A DNA stretch of 53,247 nt from positions 1 to 53,247 of the forward strand of contig JAHBSW010000012.1 in the NCBI GenBank assembly GCA_019638935.1, given 5' to 3'. Both the position numbers and the translations under genes were made by a program. This document shows, piece by piece, positions 1-19,762 of this stretch. Numbering within the stretch: the first letter of the stretch is position 1; each line of letters starts with the position of its first letter. Below the pieces are notes generated by a model that saw nothing but the letters and a program-made list of their open reading frames with translations, ran no database searches and was not told the DNA's origin. The stretch is from Cryobacterium sp. Its GTDB lineage: Bacteria > Actinomycetota > Actinomycetes > Actinomycetales > Microbacteriaceae.

Positions 1-606
1 GGCGTGACTCGGATCGTCTCGAGGCGAGAAGACACCGCCCGACGTGTTGACCTTGATCTGGTTCGCCCCGTTCCGCAGCAGTTCGCGCGTTCGCTTGCGC
101 GCCTCGTCGACGCCGTCGATCACGCCCGATGGGCGTCCGGGGTGCTCCATGAAGACCTCTGGCGCGTTGCCGCTCGGAACCCAATGGTCGCCGTGCCCTC
201 CCGTCTGGCTGAGTGCGATGATCGAGATGTGCAGCGCGGGGCCGTCGATCAGGCCGTCCTCGATCGCCTGCTGGATCCCGAGATCGGCCCCCGACGCATC
301 GCGCGCGTAGGTGATACCGACGTCGAGCGTCTTCTCGAGGATCTTCTCGGCCAGGTAGAACTGATAGGAGAACGGTGTGTTGAGGTTCTGCATCGCATCG
401 ATACTGGTGAGACAGACGTGGGTGTGGGCATCGATGAAACCCGGGAGGATGGTGAGCCCGGTGGCGTCGACGACGTCGTCGCCGGGCAAGCCCGCATCAG
501 CCCCCACGGCAACGATCGACTCGCCGTCGATCGCGACGTCACCCGAGACGATGGGGGCTCCGGTTCCATCGAATATGCTTCCACCCTTGAAGAGAACGCG
601 TGCCAT
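1..606 (-). CDS. Amidohydrolase, metal-dependent hydrolase family (partial, 3' end outside window)
   Basis: The first 202 residues of an amidohydrolase-superfamily enzyme start at ATG 606 and run off the left edge in frame. The N-terminal beta-sandwich strand (VLFKGGSIFDGTGAP) is followed by the metal-binding HxH motif in GFIDAHTHVCL near residue 58. The later segment INQIKV/IKVNTSGGVFSPRDD resembles the imidazolonepropionase-like, Xaa-Pro/arginine carboxypeptidase-type branch, where a lysine in this position is a metal ligand. Such enzymes hydrolyse amide or cyclic amide bonds in the cytoplasm. The gene is divergent from the flavin monooxygenase at 723 and belongs to the catabolic locus that extends to 9009. 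Its substrate cannot be read from sequence. The catalytic C-terminal half is not visible. Confidence 0.85.
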   Translation of the reverse strand, partial: MARVLFKGGSIFDGTGAPIVSGDVAIDGESIVAVGADAGLPGDDVVDATGLTILPGFIDAHTHVCLTSIDAMQNLNTPFSYQFYLAEKILEKTLDVGITYARDASGADLGIQQAIEDGLIDGPALHISIIALSQTGGHGDHWVPSGNAPEVFMEHPGRPSGVIDGVDEARKRTRELLRNGANQIKVNTSGGVFSPRDDPSHA

Positions 607-668
607 GAGCTGCTCCGATTCCGTAGTCTGGCCTGCATCGGCTGTTCGTGTGTATATCGCTCAGCGCA

Positions 669-692
669 ACAGTATCTTATCTAGTGTATCTT
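669..692 (+). promoter_or_regulatory. Candidate operator in divergent promoter region (GTATCTT direct repeats)
   Basis: Between the divergent amidohydrolase and flavin monooxygenase genes lies an AT-rich patch. It has two GTATCTT direct repeats (672-678 and 686-692) offset by 14 bp. The segment ACAGTATCTnnnCTARTG at 669-686 recurs at 7452-7469 in the other divergent promoter region of this locus. I infer a binding site for the IclR regulator at 1803. A sigma-factor element is the alternative. Confidence 0.4.
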
Positions 693-722
693 GATCGAAT
701 GGTCGAAGATAGGGAAAACCCA

Positions 723-1754
723 GTGCGAAACGAGTCTAGAAAAGAGTTCCGCTGGGGAATCGCCTCACTCGTCGAAGAGCCGATGCCCTCCTATGCGGAA
801 CGTGCTCGGCACCACGAAGAGCTCGGGTACCGCGACATCTGGATACCAGACGAGCGCCTCCTCCGAAACGTCTACGTGAGCCTGGCGACCGTCGCGACCG
901 CCACCACGCGAATCGGGATGGGCACGGCGGTCACCAACCCCTATACGCGCCATCCCGCTCACACCGCAGCCGCGATCGCGACCATCGACGAGCTGAGCGG
1001 CGGACGCGCCCGACTCGCCCTGGGTGCGGGCGGAGGCCTGGACGCCTACGGCATCGCACGCACCAGGCCCGTGACGACCCTGCGCGAGTCGATCGAGGTC
1101 ATCCGGGGCCTGCTCGCCAACGAGACCCTGCGCTACGAGGGAGAGATCTTCACCCTCAGGAACGCCCAGATCGACTTCGATGTGAGCCCGGTTCCCATCT
1201 ACCTCGCCGGACGAGGCCCGCAGATACTGACGCTCGCCGGCGAGGTGGCCGACGGCGCCATCATCGGCGGCTTCGCGACCGAGAGCGGCATCCACTACGC
1301 GCAAGACCTCATCGATCGGGGCGTGGCGAAAGCCGGACGTCGACCCGACGATGTCGACCGAATGGCGTGGATCTACATCTCCGTCTCCGACGACCCCGCT
1401 GCCGCACGCACCGCCGTCAGCAAGATGGTGCTCGCCTCCCTCATCACCAGCCGTCCCATCCTGGACAAGCTCGGCATCGACATCCCGCCCGCCCTTCGCG
1501 ACCACCTCGACAGCACGGGCTGGCGCTACCCCCTCGAAACGCCCGCGCAGGCATCCGCGCTCCTGCCCGACGAGATCGTGAACGCCTTCGCCGTGCACGG
1601 CACGCCGGCGGACTGCCTCGAGCAGCTGAAAGCGGTGCGGCGAGCGGGAATCGACCACGTCACCTTCGTGCCGTTCCCCCCGGCAGGCGATACGCTCGAT
1701 CGACTGGCCGAACGCATAGCGCGAGACGTCGTGCCGTCGCTGCTCGAACAGTAG
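723..1754 (+). CDS. LLM-class flavin-dependent oxidoreductase (luciferase-like monooxygenase)
   Basis: A TIM-barrel protein of the bacterial luciferase / F420-dependent reductase superfamily, about 343 residues. Typical segments are the N-terminal FRWGIAS strand, the HHEELGYRDIWIPDE segment, RIGMGTAVTNPYTRHP, and IDELSGGRARLALGAGGG, which lies near the cofactor. The family uses FMN or F420 to oxidise or reduce small organic substrates. GTG 723 is preferred because AGGGAA (711-716) sits 7 nt upstream; an in-frame ATG at 699 is the alternative. The IclR gene follows after 48 bp, probably in the same transcript. This is one of two luciferase-like enzymes in the locus, and the two are not close copies. 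Confidence 0.85.
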   Translation: MRNESRKEFRWGIASLVEEPMPSYAERARHHEELGYRDIWIPDERLLRNVYVSLATVATATTRIGMGTAVTNPYTRHPAHTAAAIATIDELSGGRARLALGAGGGLDAYGIARTRPVTTLRESIEVIRGLLANETLRYEGEIFTLRNAQIDFDVSPVPIYLAGRGPQILTLAGEVADGAIIGGFATESGIHYAQDLIDRGVAKAGRRPDDVDRMAWIYISVSDDPAAARTAVSKMVLASLITSRPILDKLGIDIPPALRDHLDSTGWRYPLETPAQASALLPDEIVNAFAVHGTPADCLEQLKAVRRAGIDHVTFVPFPPAGDTLDRLAERIARDVVPSLLEQ

Positions 1755-1802
1755 AACCAGCCCGATCGACGATGGACACCGACTCGAGGACGGAGAGCAT
1801 TG

Positions 1803-2630
1803 ATGTCAAGGAACGGACCCCTGGGTACCGAGTCCGGTGCCGAGGCCAGAAACAGCACCGTCGACCGCGCGCTGCGAGTGCTTGAAGCGTTCCTCGGCGA
1901 GGAGACCGAACTCGGCGTGCTCGAGCTGTCACGCCAGCTCGAACTCGACAAGAGCGTGATCCACCGCATCCTCGCCACCCTCGTCGCACGACGCTTCCTC
2001 GAGCAGGACCCCCTGAGCCGCCGCTACCGGGTCGGACTGCGTGTCTGGGAACTCGGGCAGCGGTTCATCTCCGGGCAGCTGCTCAAAGACATCGCCGAGA
2101 AAGAGCTCGCGGGGATGATCGCCAACCACCCCTACGCGACGGCCTTCATCGCCGAGCTCGACTCGGGCGACGTCGTCGTCGCCTCGACCATCCCAGGACC
2201 GGGGCCGCTCAACATCACCATCAACCCGGGAACCCGACTGATGGCCGAGCTCACGACCACCGGCCGCACCATGCTGGCTCAGCTGGACCGCCGCACGGTC
2301 GAGAAGATAGTCACCCGCCGCCGCAGTCACCACTCCGGCCGCGAGCTCTGCAGCCTCGACGAGCTCTATGCCGACCTCGACGTCATCCGCGAGCGCGGCT
2401 ACGGCATCTCGAGCGGCCTCTACACCCCCGGGGTGGCGACAGTCTGTCGCGTCATCAAGGGTGCGAGCGCGGAGGACCCCCTGCTCTCACTGTCCGTCGA
2501 CTTTCTCGTGGGCGCGGAGACGGAGAGCCTCCTCGAAGTCATTCCCGGCGAGCTGCTGCGCTGCGTCACCGAGATCGAGCGGGTGTTCCTCTCCGCGCCC
2601 CCGCCGCAGGTCAGCGAGCGAAGCGGCTAG
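1803..2630 (+). CDS. IclR-family transcriptional regulator
   Basis: About 275 residues with an N-terminal winged helix-turn-helix (residues ~15-75: VDRALRVLEAFL, LELSRQLELDKSVIHRILATL) and a C-terminal GAF-like effector domain (GTRLMAELTTTGRTMLAQL, then ERGYGISSGLYTPGVATV), the standard IclR layout. Such proteins usually control adjacent catabolic genes in response to a pathway metabolite. ATG 1803 has GGAG at 1792-1795; a TTG at 1800 is also possible. It sits in the middle of the amidohydrolase/monooxygenase locus and is its likely regulator. The gene converges on the isochorismatase-fold gene, and the two stop codons share the sequence CTAG (2627-2630). Confidence 0.93.
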   Translation: MSRNGPLGTESGAEARNSTVDRALRVLEAFLGEETELGVLELSRQLELDKSVIHRILATLVARRFLEQDPLSRRYRVGLRVWELGQRFISGQLLKDIAEKELAGMIANHPYATAFIAELDSGDVVVASTIPGPGPLNITINPGTRLMAELTTTGRTMLAQLDRRTVEKIVTRRRSHHSGRELCSLDELYADLDVIRERGYGISSGLYTPGVATVCRVIKGASAEDPLLSLSVDFLVGAETESLLEVIPGELLRCVTEIERVFLSAPPPQVSERSG

Positions 2631-3256
2631 GACGCATCCCCTCCGCCCTCGCTCCAGGCTGCAAGAACATCCTCGAGGGTCACGGTGTAGCCGAACAGGC
2701 TCCCCATGAGGGCCAGCGAGTGCTCGTGCGCGTCGAGCGAGATGTCTCCCGTGCCCTCCGCGACGATGAAGGTGCGGTAGGAGCGCTGGCTCGCATCCCG
2801 CACGGTGGTCTCGACGCACGCACTCGTGCCCACGCCGCAGGTGACGAGGTTCTCGATCCCCGCGGCACGAAGATCGGCGTCGATGGTGGTCTCCACGAAG
2901 GGGCTGAATCTCGACTTCGAGTAGATTCGGTCCTGCTCGTCGAGGGGCAGACCGTCGACGAAGGCGGCGTCCCAGGTGCCCTCCTCGCAGGACCCCAGCT
3001 CGACGAGTCCCGCGTACATCGGCAGCTCCGCCAGCATGTTCCAATCGGCGAGACCCGGCTCGTGGATGGCGCGCGTCGCGTAGACCGGAACCCCGGCGGC
3101 ATGCGCCGCCTCGATGAGCGCCACCGACCCGGGGATGGCATCCGCGCACCCCGAGACATCCGCTCCCGCCTTGCCGAAGGAGCCGTCGGGGTGGCAGAAA
3201 CCGTTCTGCATGTCGACCACGAGCAGTGCGGTGCGGGCTGTGGGAATTCGTATCAT
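2627..3256 (-). CDS. Isochorismatase-fold cysteine hydrolase (amidohydrolase)
   Basis: A protein of 209 residues with the isochorismatase-like fold. The triad is visible: Asp in LLVVDMQNGF (residue ~15), Lys in IYSKSRFSPF, and the nucleophile Cys in GVGTSACVETTVRDA. Known members hydrolyse N-carbamoylsarcosine, ureidoacrylate (RutB), nicotinamide or isochorismate. The RidA and monooxygenase neighbours make an amide or carbamate substrate likely. ATG 3256 follows AAGGAGAG; a longer reading to 3307 has no support. It is the last gene of the minus-strand operon, separated from ridA by 100 bp of short repeats. Confidence 0.9.
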   Translation of the reverse strand: MIRIPTARTALLVVDMQNGFCHPDGSFGKAGADVSGCADAIPGSVALIEAAHAAGVPVYATRAIHEPGLADWNMLAELPMYAGLVELGSCEEGTWDAAFVDGLPLDEQDRIYSKSRFSPFVETTIDADLRAAGIENLVTCGVGTSACVETTVRDASQRSYRTFIVAEGTGDISLDAHEHSLALMGSLFGYTVTLEDVLAAWSEGGGDAS

Positions 3257-3278
3257 GTGAGGTCCACTCTCCTTCTCA

Positions 3279-3337
3279 GTACTTCTCTGTACTTCACTTC
3301 TCTGCACTCAGGGGTTGCGTGCACTGGGGGTTGCGTT
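3279..3337. repeat. Short degenerate tandem repeats between ridA-like and isochorismatase genes
   Basis: On the plus strand GTACTTCTCT (3279-3288) is followed directly by GTACTTCACTTCTCT. Then come two 17-bp units, GCACTCAGGGGTTGCGT (304-320 of the 3000s) and GCACTGGGGGTTGCGTT (3321-3337). Read on the minus strand the first part becomes purine-rich (AGAGAAGT repeats) just upstream of the isochorismatase ribosome-binding site. It looks like replication-slippage sequence, and a regulatory role is possible but unproven. Confidence 0.6.
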
Positions 3338-3356
3338 GTTCAGCGATCGGCACGAA

Positions 3357-3830
3357 TCAGTCGATTCGCACCACCGCTTCGATCTCGGTGGAGATGCGGA
3401 AGGGCAGGGATGCCACCCCGATGGCCGAGCGAGCATGAACGTTGCCCGGCCCGAACACCGCAAGAATCAGGTCGCTTGCACCGTCGGCGATGACCGGCTG
3501 CTGCGCGAAGTCCTCCGTGGCGTTGATCAGGACGAGCAGCTTGAGGAATGCCGTGATGCGGCTCAACTCGCCCAGTTCCGCCTTGAGCGACGCCAGCACA
3601 TTGAGCATGGTCAGCTGCGCGGACTCATAGCCCTGCTCCACGCTGAGATCGGAACCCAGCTTGCCCGGGAACACCACGCCGCCATCCCGCATCGGCCCGT
3701 GACCGCTCACGTAGGCGATCGATCCGTCGATTCGCACCGGCACATAGGCGGCCGCAGGGGGAAAGGGAGCGGGCAGAACGTAGCCCAGCTCCTCGAGAAC
3801 ATCCTCGGGCCGTTTCGCCGTGGTCGTCAT
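3357..3830 (-). CDS. RidA family protein (YjgF/YER057c/UK114)
   Basis: A protein of 157 residues with the RidA signature: AYVSGHGP near residue 40, QGYESAQLTMLNVLASLKAELG in the middle, and HARSAIGVASLP near the C-terminus. The Arg of that last segment is the conserved residue that binds substrate carboxylate in RidA proteins. RidA proteins form trimers and hydrolyse reactive imines/enamines. The Rut pathway member RutC handles an aminoacrylate-type intermediate. ATG 3830 overlaps the monooxygenase stop by 4 bp (ATGA), so the two are translationally coupled. The longer, more divergent sequence suggests the broader RidA superfamily rather than the housekeeping RidA. Confidence 0.9.
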   Translation of the reverse strand: MTTTAKRPEDVLEELGYVLPAPFPPAAAYVPVRIDGSIAYVSGHGPMRDGGVVFPGKLGSDLSVEQGYESAQLTMLNVLASLKAELGELSRITAFLKLLVLINATEDFAQQPVIADGASDLILAVFGPGNVHARSAIGVASLPFRISTEIEAVVRID

Positions 3831-4852
3831 GCCGTCACTCCCTCCGCCGCGAAGTGCGGCATCACTTCACCCGCGAACATCTCCATCTGCTCGCCCATGT
3901 CCTGCTCGTCGTCGGCGACGACGATCATCCCCGCGAGCTGCGTCGCGCCAGCGTCCCGGAGCCGCTCGATGCGCTCGACCACCTGTGCCGGGCTTCCGAT
4001 CAGGTTCTGCTCCGCATACCCCGCCATGTCGATCCCCTTCAGGGTCGACGCCCTCAGGCTGACCAGATGCTCGTGCGCTTGAGAACGCGTGAACTTCTCC
4101 ATCGCCGCCTGCGGGTCGCGTCCGAGGCAGAGAACCAGCTGCGGCGCCACCTCGAAACCGACATCCGGCCTGCCCGCCGCCGCCGCGTAGTCGTGCAGCT
4201 TCTCCACGCCCGAGGCGAGGCGCTCCACCGGCATTCCCGCCGGCATCCACCCCGCTCCCCATTGCGCGGCGCGCTGTATGGTCCCCTCCGCGTTGCCGCA
4301 GGAATAGATCGGAAACGGCGACTGCAGCGGTTTGGGGAACATCTCGACGTCGGAGAACTGGAAGTGCTCGCCCTCGAAGGTTGCGCGGCGCTGCTCGAAG
4401 AGAAGCTTCATCGCCTGGATTCCCTCGGCGACAAGCTCGGCCCGAGGCGCGTGCCTGCGGGCGGGGTAGACGGCCTCGAACTCCGCCCGGTAGGCGCCGA
4501 CCCCGACGCCGAGGATGATGCGGCCCCCGCTGATCTGGTCCAGTGTCGCCACCTGCTTCGCCAGCAGCACCGGCTCACGCATCGGGATGACCACCACCCC
4601 GGTCATCATCTTGAGCGTGCTGGTGTGACTGGCGATATAGGCCATCGTCACCATCGGCTCGTAGAACCGCGGAGGCTCACTGAACATCTCCCGCACATAC
4701 GGCATGGTGCTCAGGTGGTCGTTGACCAGCACGGAATCGAATCCGAGGTCCTCCGCGAGAACGGCCAGACGGAGAACGCCCTCGTGGTCGGCGAAGCGGA
4801 TGGCGTAGGCCATCCCCTCCACGCAGGTGGGCAGTGCGACACCGAATCGCAT
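3827..4852 (-). CDS. LLM-class flavin-dependent monooxygenase/oxidoreductase (second copy)
   Basis: About 341 residues of the luciferase-like superfamily, starting MRFGVALPT at ATG 4852 with AAGGAG 7 nt upstream. Key segments are LAVLAEDLGFDSVLVNDH, LKMMTGVVVIPMREPVLLAKQ, LDQISGGRIILGVGVG and FPKPLQSPFPIYSCGNAE. These are typical of F420/FMN-dependent enzymes annotated as TIGR03619-like. It is coupled to the RidA gene by a 4-bp overlap and follows the M24 gene by 16 bp, so it is inside the operon. A ring-opening or N-oxidising monooxygenase feeding unstable products to RidA is a reasonable inference. The substrate is unknown. Confidence 0.88.
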   Translation of the reverse strand: MRFGVALPTCVEGMAYAIRFADHEGVLRLAVLAEDLGFDSVLVNDHLSTMPYVREMFSEPPRFYEPMVTMAYIASHTSTLKMMTGVVVIPMREPVLLAKQVATLDQISGGRIILGVGVGAYRAEFEAVYPARRHAPRAELVAEGIQAMKLLFEQRRATFEGEHFQFSDVEMFPKPLQSPFPIYSCGNAEGTIQRAAQWGAGWMPAGMPVERLASGVEKLHDYAAAAGRPDVGFEVAPQLVLCLGRDPQAAMEKFTRSQAHEHLVSLRASTLKGIDMAGYAEQNLIGSPAQVVERIERLRDAGATQLAGMIVVADDEQDMGEQMEMFAGEVMPHFAAEGVTA

Positions 4853-4868
4853 GTTCCGCTCCTTAGCT

Positions 4869-6071
4869 CTACTTGACGTCGAGAACGATGAGATCGCGGC
4901 TGAGTGTCGTGATGATCTCCGCACCAGTCTCGGTCACGACAACCGTGTCTTCGATGAATGCGCCCCCGATACCCAGTCGGTAGTAGGGCGTCTCGACCTC
5001 GAAGACCATTCCCGCCTCGAGCACGGTGTCGGAGTCGGGGGTGAGAACTGGGAGGTCGTAATACTCCACGCCGATCCCGTGACCGACATGCTGGCGCCGG
5101 TAGGTCGGAATGCCCGCGTCGATCACCGTCTGCACGGCGGTCGCGAAGACATCCTTGGCGACCACGCCCGGCCGCATCATGTCGATGGCCGCCTGCTGTC
5201 CGGCCTTGGATGCGTCGAACAGCTCGCGGATCTCGTCGGAGGGCTCCCCGAAGAAGACGAGTCGGCCGATGTCTGACTTGTAGCCCCCCAGATTCACTCC
5301 GACGTCGAAGAAGGCGAAGTCGCCCTCGCGGAGCTCGATGTCTCCCGCGGGTATCTGGCCGAGCGCAAGACCCTTGCCGAAGCGAACGAGGGTGAAACCC
5401 GGCTTGGCGCCCTCGGCCACCACGGTGGAGTTGAAGACCTGCTGGATCTCGCGCTCCGTCACCCCCACCCGGAACGCGTCGAACGCCGCCCGCAGCCCCT
5501 TCTCGGTCACGCGGAGCGCGGCCGTGATCTTCTCGATCTCGTCGGGCATCTTGACCGCGCGGATGTTGCGCAGCAGATGCGACGCCGGTACGAACGTCGC
5601 ATCCGGCAGTACCGCCTCGAGCGACGCGATGAGGCTCCGATTCGGTCCGCGCTCATCGACCGCCACCGTGCCGCGCGCGACCCCCAGGGTTGTGAGCGCC
5701 TCCACCAGCGCATCCACCGAACTGCGACCGGTCATGTGCCGCTGGGTGATGTCGCTCACGATCTGCTCGTCCTCGTCGAGAGGGATGCCGTCGACGATGT
5801 CGCGGAAGAACGTGCCGAACGTGATCACCCCGGCGAGCGTGGGGTGGCCCTCGAGCGTCAGGTCGGCCGACCCGATGGAGCAGACCACGATTCCGCCGTC
5901 GGGAGCGGAGGCCGGCACCACCGTGTAGGACTCGGAGTCGAGTGGGAACAGCTCTTGGCCGTCGACCCAGAACCCTCCGAAGTAGAAGTTGTTCTCGAGG
6001 GTCGACGCGATGACCGCGTCAACACCCTCCTCGCCCATGATCCGTCGGGCTCGTTCGACATTTACTGACAC
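4869..6071 (-). CDS. M24 family metallohydrolase (Xaa-Pro peptidase/creatinase fold)
   Basis: About 400 residues. The N-terminal half has the creatinase_N-type domain (RARRIMGEEGVDAVIAST). The C-terminal pita-bread domain carries all five metal ligands: two Asp in FFDVGVNLGGYKSDIGR, His in HVGHGIGVEYY, Glu in MVFEVETPYY and Glu in GGAFIEDTVVV. GTG 6071 is chosen because GAAGGAG lies 8 nt upstream and family homology begins there; upstream in-frame residues are proline/arginine-rich noise. Family members are Xaa-Pro aminopeptidases or non-peptidases such as creatinase. The operon context (amidohydrolases, isochorismatase, monooxygenase) favours a small-molecule role over peptide turnover, but both remain possible. 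Confidence 0.9.
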   Translation of the reverse strand: MSVNVERARRIMGEEGVDAVIASTLENNFYFGGFWVDGQELFPLDSESYTVVPASAPDGGIVVCSIGSADLTLEGHPTLAGVITFGTFFRDIVDGIPLDEDEQIVSDITQRHMTGRSSVDALVEALTTLGVARGTVAVDERGPNRSLIASLEAVLPDATFVPASHLLRNIRAVKMPDEIEKITAALRVTEKGLRAAFDAFRVGVTEREIQQVFNSTVVAEGAKPGFTLVRFGKGLALGQIPAGDIELREGDFAFFDVGVNLGGYKSDIGRLVFFGEPSDEIRELFDASKAGQQAAIDMMRPGVVAKDVFATAVQTVIDAGIPTYRRQHVGHGIGVEYYDLPVLTPDSDTVLEAGMVFEVETPYYRLGIGGAFIEDTVVVTETGAEIITTLSRDLIVLDVK

Positions 6072-6102
6072 TGGATGTGCTCCTTCATATTGCGGATGAC
6101 TC

Positions 6103-7392
6103 TTACGCTTGTTGGCGCGCGGGGTGGTGGGGGTCGAAGGCGTAGGACTCGTCCAGCACCGCAAGTGCCGACTCGAAGCTCGCTGCGACGGTGGGGATGT
6201 CTGGCAGAACGTCTGCGGTCACGTCGGGGTCCTTCAACCCGCTGGAGGTCAGCACGGCGACGACCACCGAGTCGGGGTCGATGGCACCGCTCTCGACAAG
6301 CGCGGAAAGCGCCGCGATCGACAGTGCGGAGGATGTCTCGACCCACAGTCCCTCGAGGGCGGCGAGGTCGAGCTGGGCCGCGATCATCTGCTCGTTGGAC
6401 GCGCTGCGCGCGGATCCACCGGTCCGGAGCAGCACGTCGAGCGCCTGATAGGTGCTGAGGTTGGACCCCACCGAGACCGCGACCGACGTGGCGCCGGCGG
6501 TGTCGATCGCCTCGACCGTGTCGAGTCCAGCGGCGAGCGCCGCCTCCAGCGGGCCGAACACCTCGGCCGCATGCATCACGGGAATGCGATCGACGGCTCC
6601 AGCCCTGGCGTACTCGGCGATTCCCTTGTAGGCCCCGCTGAACGCATCCCCCGCTCCGACCGGGAAGACGATGTGATCCGGGGTCACGGCCGACTGGTCG
6701 ATGATCTCGTAGCCGATCGACTTGTAGCCCTCGATCCCGTAGCAGTTGCTGCCGAAGAACGGGTAGCGAAAGACCGTGGTCGGGAACCATCCGAGGCGTT
6801 GAACACCGGTCTCCATGAGCATCCATCGGTCCTGCACGGTGGGAGCGGCGAGCAGATAGCTGCCGAAGACGCCCATCTGGGTCTTCATCGCGAGCGGAAA
6901 CTGCTGGGTGGTGAACATGACGCACGGCAGCCCGGCGCGCGCCGCCATGGCGGCGACCGCGGCTCCGGCGTTCCCCGACGAGGAGCCGACCACGACCTTT
7001 CGCCCCAGTTGCCGGGCCGCCGAGACGGCTCCGGCCGCGAGGCGATCTTTGAATGAACCCGTGGGGTTGCGGCTCTCGTCTTTGACGTAGAGATTCGGGA
7101 TGCCGAGCTTGCGTCCGAGTCGAGGAACGTGGAGCAGCGGCGTTCCGCCCTCCCCGAGGCTGACGATGTGCTCGTCGTCGATCGGGAGCAGTTCTTTGTA
7201 GTGCCACATGTCGGACGGTGCGCGCGACGAGCCGCGGACCCGTAGTGCCGCCGCATCGAATGCGGCCTCGTCATAGATCACCTGGAGGTTGGAGGGCTTT
7301 CCGGCCTCCGCGCACGTCTCGCAACCGGTGAAGGCACCATCGAGCGGGCTCTCGAGTCCGCAGCGTATACACCTCAAGGCCGTTGCCCTCAC
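6103..7392 (-). CDS. PLP-dependent enzyme, threonine synthase-like with zinc ribbon
   Basis: A protein of 429 residues of fold-type II. The N-terminus has a Cys4 zinc-ribbon pattern (CIRCGLE near residue 8, then GCETCAEAG near 28). The PLP lysine lies in PTGSFKDRLAAG and the phosphate-binding loop is SSSGNAGAAVA. These match the threonine synthase / threonine dehydratase / diaminopropionate ammonia-lyase group. True threonine synthase is normally with hom and thrB, which are absent here. I therefore infer a beta-elimination or beta-replacement step in the local catabolic pathway. GTG 7392 has GAAGGAG 5 nt upstream. It is the first gene of the five-gene minus-strand operon, 31 bp before the M24 gene. 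Confidence 0.88.
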   Translation of the reverse strand: MRATALRCIRCGLESPLDGAFTGCETCAEAGKPSNLQVIYDEAAFDAAALRVRGSSRAPSDMWHYKELLPIDDEHIVSLGEGGTPLLHVPRLGRKLGIPNLYVKDESRNPTGSFKDRLAAGAVSAARQLGRKVVVGSSSGNAGAAVAAMAARAGLPCVMFTTQQFPLAMKTQMGVFGSYLLAAPTVQDRWMLMETGVQRLGWFPTTVFRYPFFGSNCYGIEGYKSIGYEIIDQSAVTPDHIVFPVGAGDAFSGAYKGIAEYARAGAVDRIPVMHAAEVFGPLEAALAAGLDTVEAIDTAGATSVAVSVGSNLSTYQALDVLLRTGGSARSASNEQMIAAQLDLAALEGLWVETSSALSIAALSALVESGAIDPDSVVVAVLTSSGLKDPDVTADVLPDIPTVAASFESALAVLDESYAFDPHHPARQQA

Positions 7393-7451
7393 CGATACTC
7401 CTTCGCCCTGGACGTAGAGGCCAGCTCATTCGATTCGTTGCGTGTTACGCT

Positions 7452-7469
7452 ACAGTATCTCGCCTAATG
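7452..7469 (+). promoter_or_regulatory. Shared motif ACAGTATCTnnnCTARTG in divergent promoter region
   Basis: The intergenic region 7393-7503, between the divergent PLP-enzyme and amidohydrolase genes, contains ACAGTATCTCGCCTAATG. It matches 669-686 in the other divergent region at 14 of 18 positions. No other copy was noticed by eye in the window. It is a candidate IclR operator or a core promoter element. The surrounding sequence is AT-rich compared with the genes. Confidence 0.4.
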
Positions 7470-7503
7470 CACAAAGTATTCCTTTGGAAAGCCGACAACG
7501 CTG

Positions 7504-9009
7504 ATGCCCTCGCCCGACCACGCCGCACCCGATCGCACGATCGGCGCCGGGCCATACCGCCGACTCGTCCTGCGCAACGCCACGGTGATCGACGGAACAG
7601 GCGCCCCTCCCTACGGCCCGGTCGACATCGTCATCGAGGATGCTCGAATCCACAGCATCTTCGTCCTCCCCCCGCTCGGCGGCCCTCGGCTGCAGCCTCA
7701 TGAACGCCCCCTCACCGGGCCGGACGGGCGAGAAGTCGACCTGGCAGGCCACTACGTTCTGCCCGGACTGATCGACGCCCACGGTCATATCGGCTGGGAG
7801 AACCACGTGCCGAACGCCCAGTACGTCTACGACCTCTGGCTGGCGAACGGCATCACCACCGTGCGAGAACCCGGATGCTTCATCAACGGGCTCGACTTCG
7901 TCGTCAGCGAAGCCCGCCGGAGCGAGGCGAACGCGATCGCGGCACCGCGCATCCACCCCTATGCCGGTTTCGGACTCGATCGGCGCGAGCCCTTCCTCAC
8001 CGCGGCAGACGCCGTCGCATGGGTGAACGAGGTCGCCGAATCCGGAGCCGAAGGACTCAAACTCTGGGGCTACACAGCAGAGATCTACGAGGCGACCCTG
8101 CGCGAGGCATCCCGGCTCGGGCTGGGTTCGATGTGTCATCACCAGCAGAGCTATGTGGCTCAGGTCAACGCCCTGGATTCCGCTCGGCTGGGCCTGGGAA
8201 GCATCGAGCACTTCTACGGCATCCCCGAAGCCCTCTTCGCCGATCGACGCCTCCAGGCGTTCTCGCTCGACTACAACTATCAGCACGAGTTCCGCCGATT
8301 CGCCGACGCGGGCGACCTCTGGCGCCAGGCTGCTTCGCCCGGAACGCCGAAGTACGAGGCCGTGCTCACGGAACTGCTGCAGACGGGCGTCACACTCGAC
8401 CCCACTTTCGGGGTCTACGTCGGCCTGCGCGATGCCGAGAGGGTGCAGTCGAGCTATTGGCATCGTGAGTACACCTCCCCGACGCTGTGGGACTACTGGC
8501 AGCCGCACTCCGGCGCCCACGGCTCGTTCTTCGACGAGTGGGGAACGGAGCAGGAGACCGCGTGGCGCGGCAACTTCACCCTCTGGATGGCCTTCGTCAA
8601 GGATTTCCATGACCGCGGCGGGCGTGTCACCGTGGGGACCGATCCCGGCTCGATCTTCACGCTCTTCGGGTTCGCATTCGCTCAGGAGCTGGAACTGCTG
8701 CGGGAGGCGGGACTGCAGCCTCTCGAGATCGTTCACGCGGCCACTCTCGCCGGCGCCGAGCTGCTCGGCGTCGCCGAGGAGACCGGGAGCGTGGAGCCGG
8801 GAAAGCTGGCGGACCTCATCGTCCTGCCCGCCAACCCCCTGTCGAACATGAAGGTCTTCTACGCCTCGCACCCCTCTCTCGAGTCCACGGGAGAGAGACT
8901 GACGATCAAGGACGGGATCATCTACGACTCCCGCGCCCTGCTCGATCGTGTGCGCGCGAGCGTTCGAGACGAACGCGACACCCGCGGCGCTCCTCCGACC
9001 TCGAGCTAG
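7504..9009 (+). CDS. Amidohydrolase family protein
   Basis: A protein of 501 residues of the amidohydrolase superfamily. The N-terminal beta-sandwich (VLRNATVIDGTGAPPYGPVDIVIE) is followed by LPGLIDAHGHIGW with the HxH metal motif, a possible bridging lysine in GAEGLKLWGY, His in MCHHQQS, His in GSIEHFYG, and the terminal Asp in VTVGTDPGSIF. The C-terminal ETGSVEPGKLADLIVL is a family hallmark. It acts on C-N bonds of amides, ureas or cyclic amides. It is divergent from the five-gene operon and shares a promoter motif with the left divergent pair. It resembles the partial amidohydrolase at 1-606 in family but is not a recent duplicate. The substrate is unknown. Confidence 0.9.
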   Translation: MPSPDHAAPDRTIGAGPYRRLVLRNATVIDGTGAPPYGPVDIVIEDARIHSIFVLPPLGGPRLQPHERPLTGPDGREVDLAGHYVLPGLIDAHGHIGWENHVPNAQYVYDLWLANGITTVREPGCFINGLDFVVSEARRSEANAIAAPRIHPYAGFGLDRREPFLTAADAVAWVNEVAESGAEGLKLWGYTAEIYEATLREASRLGLGSMCHHQQSYVAQVNALDSARLGLGSIEHFYGIPEALFADRRLQAFSLDYNYQHEFRRFADAGDLWRQAASPGTPKYEAVLTELLQTGVTLDPTFGVYVGLRDAERVQSSYWHREYTSPTLWDYWQPHSGAHGSFFDEWGTEQETAWRGNFTLWMAFVKDFHDRGGRVTVGTDPGSIFTLFGFAFAQELELLREAGLQPLEIVHAATLAGAELLGVAEETGSVEPGKLADLIVLPANPLSNMKVFYASHPSLESTGERLTIKDGIIYDSRALLDRVRASVRDERDTRGAPPTSS

Positions 9010-9138
9010 CCGGCGTTCACCGCGCAGGATTTCGCCCGCGGTACCGGCCCGCGTCATTCGGCTAGCGACTAGTCTGGACTGCGGCGCCGAACTCGCCACG
9101 AGCGAGCGGTGTGTCGATTACACCACGGAGGAATACCA

Positions 9139-11697
9139 GTGCCCGGAGACAATCTCACCCGCCTCGAAGCCCAGGAGCGCAAGGCGCTCGTCGAGGTCGA
9201 CAGCTACGATGTCACGCTCGACCTCACGACCGGGCCTGAGGTGTTCCGCAGCACGACCGTCGTGACCTTCACCGCGAAAGCGGGATCGTCGACCTTCCTC
9301 GACGCCATCACGCACTCAGTGCACTCCATCGACCTCAACGGCACCGCCGTCGACACCGCTGCCGCCGACGGCCAGCGCATCCAGGTCGACGGGCTCGCCG
9401 CCGACAACGTGCTCACGATCGTCGCCGACATGGCCTACACGAACACGGGTGAAGGCCTGCACCGCTTCGTCGACCCCGTCGACGACGAGGTCTACCTCTA
9501 CTCGCAGTTCGAGGTGCCCGACTCGCGCCGCGTCTACCCCGTGTTCGAGCAGCCCGACCTCAAGGCGACCTTCCGCTTCACGGTCACCGCGCCCGCCGCG
9601 TGGGAGGTTGTCAGCAACCAGCCCGTCGAATCGCGCACCCCCACTCCTTCGACAGGCTCAGGACAAGCGACTGACACCGCCACCTGGGTGTTCAAGGCCA
9701 CGCCGCGCATCTCCTCCTACATCACGGCGATCGTCGCCGGCCCCTACGCGAAGGTCGAGAGCGAGCTCACGAGTCGCGACGGCCGCAGCATCCCGCTCGG
9801 CATCTACTCGCGCAAGTCGCTCAGCCAGTACCTCGACGCCGACTACATCTTCGACATCACCCGAAAGGGCTTCGCCTACTTCGAGGAGAAGTTCGACTAC
9901 GCCTACCCCTTCGAGAAGTACGACCAGCTCTTCGTGCCCGAGTTCAACGCCGGCGCCATGGAGAACGCGGGCGCGGTCACCTTCACCGAGACCTACGTGT
10001 TCCGCTCCAAGGTGACGGATGCCATCAAGGAACGCCGCGTCGTCACCATCCTGCACGAGCTCGCCCACATGTGGTTCGGCGACCTCGTCACCATGAAGTG
10101 GTGGAATGACCTCTGGCTCAACGAGTCCTTCGCCGAGTGGGCCTCCACGATCGCCACCGCCGAGGCCACCGAGTGGCACGAGGCGTGGACGACCTTCCAG
10201 GCCATGGAGAAGAGCTGGGCCTACCGCCAGGACCAACTCCCCTCGACGCACCCGGTCGTCGCGACGATCAACGACCTCGAGGATGTGCAGGTCAACTTCG
10301 ACGGGATCACCTACGCCAAGGGCGGCTCCGTGCTCAAGCAGCTCGTGGCCTGGGTGGGTCGTGACGCGTTCTTCGGCGGCGTCGCCGCCTATCTCAAGAA
10401 GCACGCCTGGAACAACGCCGAGCTCGCCGACCTGCTCGGCGAGCTCGAGCAGACGAGTGGTCGCGAGCTCGCATCGTGGTCGAAAGTGTGGCTCGAGACG
10501 GCGGGCGTGAACACCCTGCGCCCCTCGTTCGAGGTGGATGCCGACGGCACCTTCTCGAGTTTCGCCGTGCTGCAGAGTGCCCACCCTGACTACCCCACCA
10601 TCCGACCGCACCGACTCGCGATCGGACTCTACAACCTCGATGGTGGCGCGCTCGTGCGCACCCACCGCGTCGAACTCGACGTCGACGGCGAGCGCACCGA
10701 GGTCGCCGAACTCGTCGGCCAGGCGAAGCCCGACCTCGTGCTCGTCAACGACGACGACCTCGCCTATGCGAAGATCCGCCTCGATGACGACTCGTTCGCG
10801 GTCGCGATCAAGCACCTGGGCGACATCGAGAACCCGCTCGCCCGCGCGCTCGTCTGGGGTTCGGTGTGGGACTCGACCCGCGACGCCGAATCCGCCGCCA
10901 GCGACTACGTGGAGCTCGTGCTCCGCAACATCGGCCGCGAGACCGAGAGCACGACGATCCGCCTCACGCTCACGCAGCTGCTGCAGACGGCTCGCCAGTA
11001 CGTCAATCCGAACAACCGTGCGAAGACCATCGAGTACATCGGTTCCTCGCTGTGGGAGCTCGCCAAGCTCGCGGAGGCGGGTTCGGATGCTCAGTTCCAG
11101 TTCGTGAAGTTCTTCGCCAACATCGCCTCCGTGGGCGATCACGTGAGTGCCCTGCGCGGGCTGCTCGACGGCACGGTCGTGCTCGACGGGCTCACCGTCG
11201 ACACCGACCTCGCCTGGGAGCTGCTCGAGGGTCTTGTGCTGAACGGCGCGGCGACTCCCGCAGACATCGATGAGGCCCTCGCCAAGGACAACACGGCGAA
11301 CGGGCAGCAGGCTGCGGCACGAGCACGAGCGACCTTCCCCACCGCTGACGCCAAGCTTGCGGCCTTCTCGTCGATCGTCGATGACTCGTCGGCTCCCAAT
11401 GCGATCGTGCGCAACACGGCGCTGGGATACCAGCACGTCAACGACCCGTCGAGCCTCGAGCCGCTCGTCGCGAAGTACTTCGCGAGCCTCGGGTCGATCT
11501 GGGAGAACCGCAGCTACCACATCGCCGAGACGCTCATCGTGGGCCTCTACCCCGCACCGCTCGCCTCACAGGGACTCGTGGATGCGACCAAGGCCTGGCT
11601 CGACTCCAACCCGGACGTGCCGGCACTGCGTCGCCTCGTGATCGAGAACCTCGCCGGAGTCGAGCGCGCTCTCGCGGCGCAGAGCAAAGACAGCTAG
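9139..11697 (+). CDS. pepN: Aminopeptidase N (M1 family)
   Basis: A cytosolic zinc aminopeptidase of about 852 residues that removes N-terminal amino acids from peptides. It shows the exopeptidase motif GAMENAGAVTFTE near residue 270 and the zinc site HELAHMWFGD with the distal Glu in WLNESFAEW (HEXXH-18-E). The C-terminal ERAP1-like helical region completes the usual length. GTG 9139 follows GGAGGAA (9127-9133) by 5 nt. An unusual linker near residue 170 (TPSTGSGQA) is encoded by a sequence resembling a dispersed genomic repeat. The gene converges on the DUF1028 gene, and the two stop codons overlap through CTAG at 11694-11697. Confidence 0.97.
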   Translation: MPGDNLTRLEAQERKALVEVDSYDVTLDLTTGPEVFRSTTVVTFTAKAGSSTFLDAITHSVHSIDLNGTAVDTAAADGQRIQVDGLAADNVLTIVADMAYTNTGEGLHRFVDPVDDEVYLYSQFEVPDSRRVYPVFEQPDLKATFRFTVTAPAAWEVVSNQPVESRTPTPSTGSGQATDTATWVFKATPRISSYITAIVAGPYAKVESELTSRDGRSIPLGIYSRKSLSQYLDADYIFDITRKGFAYFEEKFDYAYPFEKYDQLFVPEFNAGAMENAGAVTFTETYVFRSKVTDAIKERRVVTILHELAHMWFGDLVTMKWWNDLWLNESFAEWASTIATAEATEWHEAWTTFQAMEKSWAYRQDQLPSTHPVVATINDLEDVQVNFDGITYAKGGSVLKQLVAWVGRDAFFGGVAAYLKKHAWNNAELADLLGELEQTSGRELASWSKVWLETAGVNTLRPSFEVDADGTFSSFAVLQSAHPDYPTIRPHRLAIGLYNLDGGALVRTHRVELDVDGERTEVAELVGQAKPDLVLVNDDDLAYAKIRLDDDSFAVAIKHLGDIENPLARALVWGSVWDSTRDAESAASDYVELVLRNIGRETESTTIRLTLTQLLQTARQYVNPNNRAKTIEYIGSSLWELAKLAEAGSDAQFQFVKFFANIASVGDHVSALRGLLDGTVVLDGLTVDTDLAWELLEGLVLNGAATPADIDEALAKDNTANGQQAAARARATFPTADAKLAAFSSIVDDSSAPNAIVRNTALGYQHVNDPSSLEPLVAKYFASLGSIWENRSYHIAETLIVGLYPAPLASQGLVDATKAWLDSNPDVPALRRLVIENLAGVERALAAQSKDS
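9644..9669 (+). repeat. CTTCGACAGGCTCAGGA-type dispersed repeat inside pepN
   Basis: The 26-bp stretch CTCCTTCGACAGGCTCAGGA + CAAGCG resembles the CCTGAGCCTGTCGAAGG-type sequence that I recall as widely dispersed, usually between genes, in GC-rich bacteria. Here it is in frame in pepN and encodes part of TPSTGSGQAT, a low-complexity linker between two conserved segments. Its status as a repeat rests on memory, since no second copy is in the window. Confidence 0.4.
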
Positions 11698-12332
11698 GCC
11701 CGCGGAACCCACAGGTCGAGCAGGCGGCGCAGCTCCGGCACCGGATCGGGGTGATCGTCCACGCGGAGATCGATGACCAGGGACTCCGGTTCGCCCTCCG
11801 CCCACTGGGAGCGGCCGACCAGGAGCACCGCGCTCTGACGTCCACGCTGGTCGCCACCGGCATCCTGACCCGCCTGAAGCACCCCGATCAGGCGCTCACC
11901 GAACTGGCGGACATCCTCCGTCGCGGGCACGACCGAGAGTTTCGCCGCCATCGCGTCGAGCACCTCGGGGCCGACCAGAATGTTGCCCTGAACGCTGAAG
12001 CCCGCGGCGGAGATCGCCCCGTGCCACTCCGCGGTCTCGGCACCGGTGAAGACGGCTGCACTGCCCCGGCCATCCATCACGGCCACCTGACGGCCCGCGG
12101 AACCCTCATCGAGCAGCGGCACGGTCGCGATCGCCTGCTCGACGGACTCGCCACGACGCAAGGCCCTGATCATCTCGAACCGCAACTGCGGATTCGTGAA
12201 AGCCTGACTCCAGACGGCGCCGACACCCGGGACCACCATGGGCGCCGCGCTGCCGATCGCGAGGAACCTGGTCGACCCGGCCGCGGCCATAAAGGAACCG
12301 TCGGCAGACAGGGCGAGAAGCGAGAAGGTCAT
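11694..12332 (-). CDS. DUF1028 domain-containing protein
   Basis: A protein of 212 residues matching DUF1028, an Ntn-hydrolase-like family of unknown reaction. The N-terminus MTFSLLALSADGSFMAAAGS and the following RFLAIGSAAPMVVPGVGAVWSQAFTNP are the typical first block. LDEGSAGRQVAVMDGRGSAAVFTGAET and GFSVQGNILVGPEVLDAM are the typical second block. Family members are often next to peptidases or amidohydrolases, but substrates are not known to me. Its ATG overlaps the stop of the GNAT gene by 4 bp, so the two are co-translated. The DUF1028 gene is second in this two-gene operon. Confidence 0.85.
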   Translation of the reverse strand: MTFSLLALSADGSFMAAAGSTRFLAIGSAAPMVVPGVGAVWSQAFTNPQLRFEMIRALRRGESVEQAIATVPLLDEGSAGRQVAVMDGRGSAAVFTGAETAEWHGAISAAGFSVQGNILVGPEVLDAMAAKLSVVPATEDVRQFGERLIGVLQAGQDAGGDQRGRQSAVLLVGRSQWAEGEPESLVIDLRVDDHPDPVPELRRLLDLWVPRA

Positions 12333-12832
12333 GCGCGTGCCACCGTCCGCGCCAGCAGCGCCACCTCGTAGGCCCCACCCTTGGTGACGAGTTCGCCGAC
12401 CCTCTCGAAACCGAGCCGCTCGTGAAAGCGCATCGACCCCGGGTTCGGTGGCATCGTGTTGACCTCGCAGGTCACCTCCGCACGCCCCTGCTCCGCCGCG
12501 ACGCGGAAGAGCTCCCGGTAGAGCGCGTCGCCGATTCCCTCGCCGCGGCGCCCCTCGGCGATCGCGATCCGGTCGATGTAGAGAAAATCGGGGCCGCGTT
12601 CGGAGAACCAGCGGTAGTTCTCGCTCTCGTAGTCCGCACCTGGCGCCATGACGAGGAGAAAGCCGAGCACGGCTGCGTCGTCGGAATCGTCGACGGCGAC
12701 GAGCGACAACTCGGAGAGCTCGACGAGCCGGGCGACCTCGTCGGCATCCGCCGGTGTGACGCCCGGCACACCCGCCCCGTTGATAGCCGAAACCTGACCG
12801 ATGTCCACCGATTCGAGTGGGCGGATGCGCAT
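12329..12832 (-). CDS. GNAT family N-acetyltransferase
   Basis: A protein of 167 residues with the acetyl-CoA-binding core of GNAT enzymes: FLYIDRIAIAEGRRGEGIGDALY (motif A, with the R/Q-x-x-G-x-G/A pattern as RRGEGIG) and GSMRFHERLGFERVGEL (motif B). Such enzymes acetylate amines on small molecules or proteins, and the substrate is not predictable here. ATG 12832 follows AAGGAG at 6-7 nt, and the extension to 12898 lacks support. It is coupled to the DUF1028 gene by a 4-bp overlap and is divergent from mscS. Confidence 0.88.
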   Translation of the reverse strand: MRIRPLESVDIGQVSAINGAGVPGVTPADADEVARLVELSELSLVAVDDSDDAAVLGFLLVMAPGADYESENYRWFSERGPDFLYIDRIAIAEGRRGEGIGDALYRELFRVAAEQGRAEVTCEVNTMPPNPGSMRFHERLGFERVGELVTKGGAYEVALLARTVARA

Positions 12833-12918
12833 GCTTGGCTCCTTGCGTAGACGGTTGGGGATCGAAGTGGGGGGTGCGCCAGCTGAGCGCGAACCCAACC
12901 TACAGAAATGACGACGGC

Positions 12919-12924
12919 TAGACT
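12919..12924 (+). promoter_or_regulatory. -10 box TAGACT upstream of mscS
   Basis: TAGACT lies 9 nt before the ATG at 12934, so the mRNA leader is very short or absent. It is one of several TAnnnT boxes close to start codons in this window. An AGGGG stretch in the gap could still act as a weak ribosome-binding site. Confidence 0.45.
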
Positions 12925-12933
12925 ACAGGGGCT

Positions 12934-13881
12934 ATGGGCGACACTGACTGGACTGCCGTGTGGGCCGACGTGATGGAGTTCCTTGCGGCGTGGCGCGTGC
13001 CCGCGACGGTGGTCGGAATCATCCTCGGTGCGATCGTCGCGCGCTGGGTGCTCCAGTTTCTCGTGCGTCGCATCGTGCACCGCGTCGTGACCGGCGTCAA
13101 GAAGTCCCAGGGCGTCGAGTTCACGCAGGAGCTCAACGCCTCACCCCTCCATGCCGTGCGCGTCGTGCAGCGCACCCGCACGCTCGGAAACGTCTTCGGC
13201 AACCTCATCACCGCCGTGATCGTCATGGTCGCATTCCTCGTCATCATCAACGTCACGATCCCCAACGTCACGGGAGCCTTCGCCCTCATCACCGCCGCCG
13301 TCGGCGCAGGGCTCGGTTTCGGAGCGCAGAGCCTCATCAAAGACATCCTCAACGGCCTTTTCATGGTGGCGGAGGACCAGTTCGGGGTGGGCGACATCAT
13401 CGACGTGGGCGAGGCGTCCGGGGTCGTCGAATCGGTGGGGATTCGGGTGACGAGCATCCGCAGCGTCGACGGCACCCTGTGGTGGGTGCGCAACGGCGAG
13501 ATCCTGCGGGTCGGCAACATGTCACAGGGCTGGGCGCGCGCCGTGATCGACCTGCCCGTGCCCTACGCGGCCAACCTCGACGACGTGACCGCGACCGTTC
13601 TCGAGACCGCGACCGCCATGTCGGAGAGCGGCGAGTGGCGCCGCAAGATCATGGCCAAGCCCGAGATCTGGGGTGTCGAGTCGATCAGTGCTGAGGCCAC
13701 CGTGCTGCGGCTCGTCGTGAAGACGCGGCCGTCGGAGCAGTGGGGCGTGGCCCGTGAGCTGCGGGCACGGTTGAAGTCGGCGCTCGATGCGAGCGGTGTG
13801 AGCATCCCGTCGCTCAAGCGCATAGTCATGGACCCGGCGGGCAACAGCGCCGCCAACGGCGGCACCCCCAAGGAGAAGTAG
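12934..13881 (+). CDS. Small-conductance mechanosensitive channel family protein (MscS)
   Basis: A protein of 315 residues with three membrane segments: VPATVVGIILGAIVARWVL, FGNLITAVIVMVAFLVIIN, and the pore-lining TM3 FALITAAVGAGLGFGAQSLI followed by the glycine/alanine-rich hinge. The MscS signature IKDILNGLFMVAEDQFGVGDII and the cytoplasmic beta domain (GTLWWVRNGEILRVGNMSQ) follow. MscS channels release solutes on hypo-osmotic shock. The stop codon overlaps the GTG of the hemoglobin gene by 1 bp, indicating co-translation. The N-terminus is short, as in the basic MscS type. Confidence 0.92.
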   Translation: MGDTDWTAVWADVMEFLAAWRVPATVVGIILGAIVARWVLQFLVRRIVHRVVTGVKKSQGVEFTQELNASPLHAVRVVQRTRTLGNVFGNLITAVIVMVAFLVIINVTIPNVTGAFALITAAVGAGLGFGAQSLIKDILNGLFMVAEDQFGVGDIIDVGEASGVVESVGIRVTSIRSVDGTLWWVRNGEILRVGNMSQGWARAVIDLPVPYAANLDDVTATVLETATAMSESGEWRRKIMAKPEIWGVESISAEATVLRLVVKTRPSEQWGVARELRARLKSALDASGVSIPSLKRIVMDPAGNSAANGGTPKEK

Positions 13882-19704: not shown

Positions 19705-19732
19705 TAGAGCCGTCTTTTCGCCCGCCGGGAGC

Positions 19733-19762
19733 GCATTCAACGATAAAGTGTCTGGCATTCAA
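19733..19762. promoter_or_regulatory. GCATTCAA direct repeats upstream of hutH
   Basis: GCATTCAA occurs at 19733-19740 and again at 19755-19762, offset by 22 bp (about two helical turns) in the hutH promoter region. On the hutH strand it reads TTGAATGC. The spacing suits side-by-side binding of a regulator such as the adjacent IclR protein. This is a sequence observation, and binding is inferred. Confidence 0.4.

Follow-up and report, generated by a model that had tools for sequence, protein, structure and literature searches.

A recurrent three-enzyme core in a possible mosaic catabolic island of Cryobacterium sp.

Introduction

Do the nine genes at the start of a 53,247-nucleotide stretch of Cryobacterium sp. 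DNA (GenBank JAHBSW010000012.1; this whole stretch is called the window below) form one catabolic system, and if so, what does it break down? A sequence-only reading of the first 9,009 positions had proposed a single new pathway that combines enzymes resembling those of Rut pyrimidine degradation and of creatinine breakdown. All nine genes are present with the families it gave them, as judged from open reading frames and family matches, and the impression of a locus with a catabolic look that fits none of the known pathways tested was borne out when tests against the Rut, creatinine and ectoine routes failed. Our answer on the system itself is narrower. Only three of the genes, which encode a luciferase-like monooxygenase (LLM2), an M24 hydrolase and a pyridoxal phosphate (PLP) enzyme, recur together in related loci, and the locus as a whole may be an acquired mosaic catabolic island around this core.

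Results

Layout of the locus

606..1, minus strand: amidohydrolase A1 (Amidohydro_1), N-terminal 202 aa, truncated by the contig start
699-1754, plus strand: LLM1, a Mer-like luciferase-fold protein (open reading frame from 648; ATG at 699 chosen as start)
1800-2630, plus strand: IclR-family regulator, by family match
3256-2627, minus strand: Iso, an isochorismatase-fold cysteine hydrolase (start chosen)
3830-3357, minus strand: RidA-family protein (PF14588/PF01042, of the PF14588 type)
4852-3827, minus strand: LLM2, luciferase-fold monooxygenase, core gene (start chosen)
6071-4869, minus strand: M24 hydrolase of a Tyr-type subfamily, core gene (GTG start chosen)
7392-6103, minus strand: fold-type-II PLP enzyme, threonine-synthase-like, with an N-terminal CxxC...CxxC, core gene
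7504-9009, plus strand: amidohydrolase A2

The starts of LLM1, M24, LLM2 and Iso are choices, those of the minus-strand genes being made from the junction sequences, in which purine-rich stretches precede M24, LLM2 and Iso. PLP, M24, LLM2, RidA and Iso make up one tight five-gene run on the minus strand. The close packing reported earlier for the first three is confirmed by gaps of 31 bp (PLP-M24) and 16 bp (M24-LLM2), and the reported overlap of a monooxygenase gene with ridA is the 4-bp ATGA shared by LLM2 and ridA; RidA and Iso are 100 bp apart. LLM1 and the IclR gene lie on the plus strand, and A1 and A2 flank the locus at its edges. The nine proteins include no transporter, no sarcosine oxidase, no carrier protein, exporter or known resistance family, and no flavin reductase, genes left of position 1 being out of view. 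The host genome (2.41 Mb, 75 contigs) is 94.9% complete, and position 1 of the window is also position 1 of its contig (C4), so the sequence further left is out of reach. On plasmids, the closest relatives of the host's EttA are those of Streptomyces, Tsukamurella and Nonomuraea (72-77%, the next at 59%), and its seven best PepN matches are all actinobacterial, in keeping with a host that is probably an actinobacterium. Rfam at the gathering threshold gave no match in positions 1-13000, and neither did a promoter and terminator scan of positions 1-9200.

Co-conservation of the core

Searches with the PLP enzyme gave a single match, at E 1e-60, among 118 other relatives (G065), matches in 4 of 396 genomes of a phylum sample and in 11 of 394 genomes of a class sample (own genome counted in both), 3 of 35 genomes in one family, two of them already known, and, for named genomes, the best 80 of 596 confirmed stretches. 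Sixteen related loci of the same phylum were read (L028-L031, L160-L170 and Nocardioides L040). LLM2, M24 and PLP are all present in 14 of them, or in 14 of 19 once three Mycobacterium loci with PLP alone are counted. M24 adjoins PLP in 15 of the 16, while LLM2, a second LLM and a PucR-type match, the last where the window has IclR, are each found in 14. RidA or Iso matches at E 1e-6 were found in none of the 16. The gene-neighbourhood check that had been suggested for the M24, LLM, RidA, isochorismatase and threonine-synthase-like genes upholds the core as co-conserved and leaves RidA, Iso, IclR and the amidohydrolases outside it, and the idea of nine genes acting as one system is not borne out. 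The earlier remark that no transporter is visible is correct for the nine proteins but does not extend to the relatives, which have an NCS1 permease in 10 of the 16 loci and an SBP5 or NMT1 ATP-binding cassette (ABC) transporter in three more. Pfam assignments cover the NCS1 proteins of two loci, the PucR proteins of two and the L029 and L040 transporters; the other assignments are from tblastn, and the NCS1 calls beyond the two Pfam-tested loci rest on 49-80% similarity.

The incomplete loci differ in kind. L169 has no core partner beside PLP on its 8.9-kb contig, L168 has no LLM match, and L170 ends shortly after LLM2, where a PucR or permease gene could not show. The LLM genes of L029 are about 4.3 kb from its M24-PLP pair, with ABC-transporter genes among those in between. 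Mycobacterium L019, L041 (a 4.5-kb contig) and L042 have the PLP gene with no M24 or LLM2 match.

The PLP and LLM2 searches of the class were taken as one sample (394 genomes each, with shared handles where visible), in which only 4-5 candidates per genome were scored. Of the 393 other genomes, 10 have a PLP relative (E 1e-62) and 8 an LLM2 relative (E 1e-60). Each of these 8 also belongs to the PLP-positive 10 and has LLM2 adjoining the PLP gene, which is more than packing by chance (Fisher p 3e-15, uncorrected for kinship, with 7 of the 8 genomes from one genus and all 8 from one family). Trios outside that family were seen in G065, which belongs to the family of the window, in G361, G191, G126 and G521, from two further families, and in Nocardioides. 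Some Proteobacteria also have the M24-PLP pair: it occurs in Agrobacterium pusense and Bosea vestrisii with IclR and a TTT transporter, in Mesorhizobium B1-1-8 with an amino-acid ABC transporter, and in Stappia. No adjacent M24 match was found for the proteobacterial PLP relatives L014, L015, L016, L039 and L046, and Bradyrhizobium L018 has M24 with no PLP match.

We are close to certain that the LLM2-M24-PLP core is a real functional unit. Compared with the operons of the phylum, the window has the same orthologous core, but the order is PLP-M24-LLM2 instead of LLM2-M24-PLP, and IclR, RidA and Iso stand where the others have PucR and a transporter. Its identity to six of the 14 trio loci is 40-46% for LLM2, 32-37% for M24 and 38-41% for PLP, as against 56-77%, 47-65% and 51-67% among those six. 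By these comparisons the window is a divergent, mosaic variant of the operon. Its parts belong to known superfamilies, and what looks new is the gene combination together with the signatures of the PLP and M24 enzymes; no description of these was found in the literature searched, which left subscription papers mostly out of reach.

The PLP enzyme

The window PLP enzyme shares with threonine synthase (ThrC) the fold, the CxxC...CxxC N-terminus of some members and the NPTGSFKDR lysine motif, and a PALP domain (PF00291, 204 bits) with the SFKDR motif places it in fold type II. It differs in lacking VNPxR and GNAGN and in scoring below the cut-off of the ThrC model TIGR00260 (155.6 bits, or 88.4 in the genome scan, against 167.1). 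Its motifs read GSNCYGIEGYKS / PVGAGDA / TSSGLKD, and most of its operon relatives read GS[NH]xxGxxGYKT, [AG]D and TS/TA-GLKD. The best ThrC proteins of ten operon genomes (L175-L184) read VN[PN]xR / PVGNAGN / TGHGLKD. In all 11 genomes tested, including our own, another gene passes the ThrC cut-off (C12:46589-47527 in our genome, with 290.8 bits) and the operon PLP proteins stay below it. With both motifs missing and another gene over the cut-off in each genome, threonine synthesis was rejected as the job of this enzyme. In threonine synthase we take the phosphohomoserine phosphate to be held by an Arg and a Ser in the ThrC motif; the operon enzyme likely acts on an unphosphorylated amino acid.

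In a FastTree phylogeny of 109 PLP-like sequences, which leaves out L169 and L046 (by hand) and L055, L079, L080, L093 and L185 (stop or length filter), the window protein falls into one clade with the operon and proteobacterial forms (support 0.78). The clade also includes L078, L083, L108, L111 and L113, whose loci gave no M24 or LLM2 match.

Threonine-synthase-like PLP genes were also seen on five alphaproteobacterial plasmids (L012-L016) near cysteine-synthase-family and kinase genes (GHMP in L012), with acyl-homoserine lactone (AHL) synthase and LuxR genes close by in L014-L016. In Streptomyces caatingaensis (L113) the neighbours of the PLP gene include one with a GHMP kinase domain and one that by eye is cysteine-synthase-like.

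The M24 hydrolase

The ten best solved matches of the window M24 are of the aminopeptidase P/prolidase type (122-131 bits; best 2zsg, an aminopeptidase P, 130.8), the M24B group, with which it shares the family and the D, D, H, E, E positions that we take to be the five metal ligands. It departs from them in two motifs. Its loop has GHGIGVEYYDLP in place of the GHG.GLE.HE.P of two solved relatives, and its second motif is VETPYY where they have VEPGIY or IEPGIY. A Tyr thus replaces the conserved His of GHGxGLExHExP, presumably a functional residue in prolidase and aminopeptidase P, and does so in 25 of 26 aligned M24 rows, window included. The sole His row is L016, a partial M24 about 11 kb from its PLP gene. 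Across the 26 rows the second motif is ETPYY in 21, ETPFY in 2, EAPYY in 2 and ETPHY in 1.

Plasmids of Chimaeribacter, Macrococcus and Sphingobium (L171, L172 and L174) carry a Tyr-type M24 between HpaB-like and cysteine-synthase-like PLP genes. Each of the three also has PyrD, two have PyrE, and LOG-type genes are nearby. The HpaB-like gene is marked as a pseudogene in Sphingobium, and in the other two a NUDIX gene lies between it and M24. These clusters have the look of small-molecule clusters, and no description of them was found in the literature searched. On a Paraburkholderia sabiae plasmid (L173, 1104-9526) a Tyr-type M24 adjoins a D-glutamate-cyclase-family protein, an ABC transporter and a PLP lyase/thiolase.

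The luciferase-like proteins

LLM2 is 40-46% identical to six compared relatives (about 250-300 bits) and passes the "F420-dependent" model TIGR03619 with 218.8 bits (cut-off 166.9). A search for cofG, which was positive in three archaea used as control and found large frames in G361 and G521, gave no match in our own genome nor in 8 of the 10 other operon genomes. Six of the cofG-negative operon genomes are 99-100% complete; at 94.9% completeness a cofG gene could have been missed in our own. With no cofG match, F420 dependence was rejected for this host, and since the gene has no match here or in most operon genomes, both LLM proteins probably depend on flavin mononucleotide (FMN), with a reductase supplied from elsewhere. 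A further LLM gene at 42410-43333 of the window is of the TIGR03560 "F420-dependent" type and over its cut-off, although no cofG was found.

The best match of LLM1 is inside the operon in 5 of the 10 operon genomes (G361, G618, G126, G575 and G664; 94-104 bits), a match outside the operon of G575 scoring within one bit of it. In G521, G065 and G191 the best match is outside, and two of the ten genomes have none at E 1e-25. LLM1 is at most a putative orthologue of the second LLM of the relatives, which these scores do not establish. On plasmids no close relative was found among the 12 records listed for either protein (of 1340 for LLM2, 29-32% identity; of 115 for LLM1, 27-36%).

RidA, Iso and the amidohydrolases

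RidA keeps HARSAIGVASLP in alignment with solved Rid proteins, and its Arg we take to be catalytic; by family and by this position the protein is a putative imine deaminase. Its only match among the curated models searched is TIGR00004 (19.8 bits, cut-off 106). Nearly every genome of the class (282 of 296) has a RidA relative, so RidA is no marker of the system. Aligned with RutB and biuret hydrolase, Iso keeps the positions of Asp, Lys and Cys, which presumably form its catalytic triad. Near relatives of Iso no M24, PLP or LLM2 match was found in three same-family genomes, and none is annotated in two plasmid regions whose annotation is incomplete. Because neither protein belongs to the conserved core, a role for RidA and Iso rests on their membership of the operon; on balance they probably serve the same pathway as the core.

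Relatives of A1 (37-40% identity) are near the operon in seven loci of one genus, with a phosphoenolpyruvate-carboxykinase-like gene (by eye) between the two in all three loci read (L160, L163 and L164). Its near-operon relatives being confined to one genus, A1 was rejected as a core gene, and its membership of the operon is doubtful. Relatives of A2 (45-51%) occur in 71 plasmid records. Three of these regions were read. In Rhodococcus the neighbours are hydantoinase/oxoprolinase subunits together with an ABC transporter of the sugar type; in Pseudoroseomonas they are an ABC transporter and a GTP-binding gene; and Burkholderia has gabT, an aldehyde dehydrogenase and a GTP-binding gene there. 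This company looks like the catabolism of nitrogen compounds, but without the core, so that the claim of one conserved set fails for A2 as it does for RidA and Iso.

Discussion

We tentatively favor a reading, quite possible though a little short of probable, in which a mosaic catabolic island was acquired around the three-enzyme core. The cell would take up a cyclic amide or a small ring compound that contains nitrogen, and LLM2 would oxidise it. M24 might then open or trim the oxidised compound at a C-N bond to give an alpha-amino acid, from which the PLP enzyme would remove a beta or gamma substituent. RidA could hydrolyse the resulting enamine or imine to a 2-oxo acid and ammonia, while Iso, and perhaps the amidohydrolases, would free the ammonia of a fragment that bears a carbamoyl, ureido or amide group. 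The argument for this route is that the core recurs with transporters and regulators, that the PLP enzyme departs from the ThrC motifs and M24 from those of prolidase with its metal-ligand positions kept, that PLP and Iso were not found in the seven genus-mates, that A2 relatives accompany hydantoinase/oxoprolinase, ABC-transporter and gamma-aminobutyrate (GABA) genes, and that RidA and Iso keep their catalytic positions within the same gene run. The NCS1 and SBP5/NMT1 transporters of the relatives suit a small polar nitrogen compound. If correct, this would reveal a recurrent unnamed catabolic operon masked by the labels threonine synthase, Xaa-Pro peptidase and F420-dependent oxidoreductase, provide testable signatures for two enzyme subfamilies as well as a way to find their substrate, and show RidA directly recruited into a PLP-based breakdown operon.

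Several points weigh against this reading. Since transporters vary from lineage to lineage, the substrates of related operons may differ as well. The core is not universal, as shown by the PLP relatives that lack M24 or LLM2 (L169, L019, L041, L042 and several in Proteobacteria), and RidA and Iso accompany it in the window only. In the tree, the branch of the window PLP enzyme is long and deep (0.76, with a clade support of 0.78), and the loss of VNPxR alone is no proof of a new substrate because L186-L188, which are over the ThrC cut-off, also lack it and read NVRPYYAEGSKT. Finally, the same type of M24 sits with PyrD, HpaB-like and other biosynthetic-looking genes in three plasmid clusters, so the direction of the pathway could be reversed.

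Among known routes, a Rut-type pyrimidine pathway would cast an LLM as RutA, Iso as RutB and RidA as RutC. Three shared superfamilies in one gene run, the NCS1 permeases of many relatives and the fact that RutB is the best curated match of Iso (97.4 bits) speak for it, but that score is far below the cut-off of 377.95, as is that of LLM2 against RutA (52.9 against 498.3), and the 25 of 31 families shown for LLM1 do not include RutA. No flavin reductase is seen among the nine proteins, genes left of position 1 being out of view, and to our knowledge M24 and PLP enzymes have no place in the Rut pathway. Membership was rejected on the missed cut-offs, and we regard this explanation as very improbable. 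A creatinine-type pathway, with M24 as creatinase and Iso as N-carbamoylsarcosine amidase, would fit the superfamilies and a cyclic-amide chemistry. Creatinase structures, however, reach only 47.2 and 42.5 bits with M24, far from its aminopeptidase P/prolidase matches, and N-carbamoylsarcosine amidohydrolase (1nba) reaches 39 bits with Iso against a leading range of 67-82 that includes 3kl2, a putative isochorismatase (81.9), biuret hydrolase (73.5) and RutB (71.6). Since neither enzyme is the nearest solved structure, and with no sarcosine oxidase among the nine proteins, this route was rejected and is the least credible of all. The labels "Rut-like" and "creatinine-like" are thus apt at the level of superfamilies and no further, the scores for RutA, RutB and biuret hydrolase lying far below cut-off. 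The nearest logic of a ring-opening pair is that of DoeA/EutD and EutB in ectoine and hydroxyectoine degradation, likewise an M24 hydrolase with a fold-II PLP enzyme, but the EutD and EutB models give 67.8 bits (cut-off 613) and 42.2 bits (cut-off 413), the window has an additional LLM, and membership was rejected.

Two further explanations keep the core and change its meaning. The locus could be a hot spot of unrelated catabolic genes in which only LLM2, M24 and PLP cooperate and RidA, Iso, LLM1 and both amidohydrolases act independently. The lack of RidA and Iso in related loci, the other company kept by LLM1 and by A2 relatives, and the histidine-utilization genes at 14311-19758 all agree with this, but RidA and Iso lie in the same tight run, RidA with a 4-bp overlap; we consider it a serious possibility, although rather unlikely. 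A biosynthetic or detoxifying cluster, whose M24-PLP pair makes or inactivates an amino-acid-derived antimetabolite, seems quite improbable. It draws on the plasmid clusters in which Tyr-type M24 adjoins PLP together with HpaB-like, PyrD and LOG-type genes, and on rhizobial PLP relatives that lack an adjacent M24 and have AHL synthase and LuxR genes close by. Against it, importer-type transporters and PucR are found in most of the phylum's related operons, and the nine proteins include neither a carrier protein nor an exporter nor a member of any known resistance family. The plasmid clusters with PyrD and HpaB-like genes also suggest a broader idea, which we judge unlikely: that Tyr-type M24 and fold-II PLP constitute an undescribed two-enzyme module for opening, or closing, a nitrogen ring derived from an amino acid, and that it is reused across Actinobacteria, Proteobacteria and Bacillota, both in breakdown operons (with LLMs and NCS1) and in putative biosynthetic clusters (with PyrD, PyrE, LOG, NUDIX and HpaB-like genes), the window variant adding RidA and a ureido-type hydrolase.

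Origin and surroundings of the locus

The PLP and Iso genes, the two searched for there, were not found in any of the seven genus-mates (completeness 87-96%), and in the four genus-mates read the gene upstream of pepN is a different one, DsbA/Rv2466c-like (Pfam in one, by eye in three). For these reasons the cluster is probably an acquired insertion beside pepN. Between pepN and an MscS gene, at 11694-12898, the window has a DUF1028 gene and a GNAT gene, where the four genus-mates read have no gene; the pair may be a second small insertion, perhaps sharing its origin. Of the minus-strand histidine-utilization genes, hutI, hutU and hutH are over their cut-offs and a hutG-like gene is below, and an IclR-like regulator follows at 19894-20658. 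At 50391-51470 there is a gene with Ala_racemase_N and D-ser_dehydrat domains that scores far under the BhcC cut-off.

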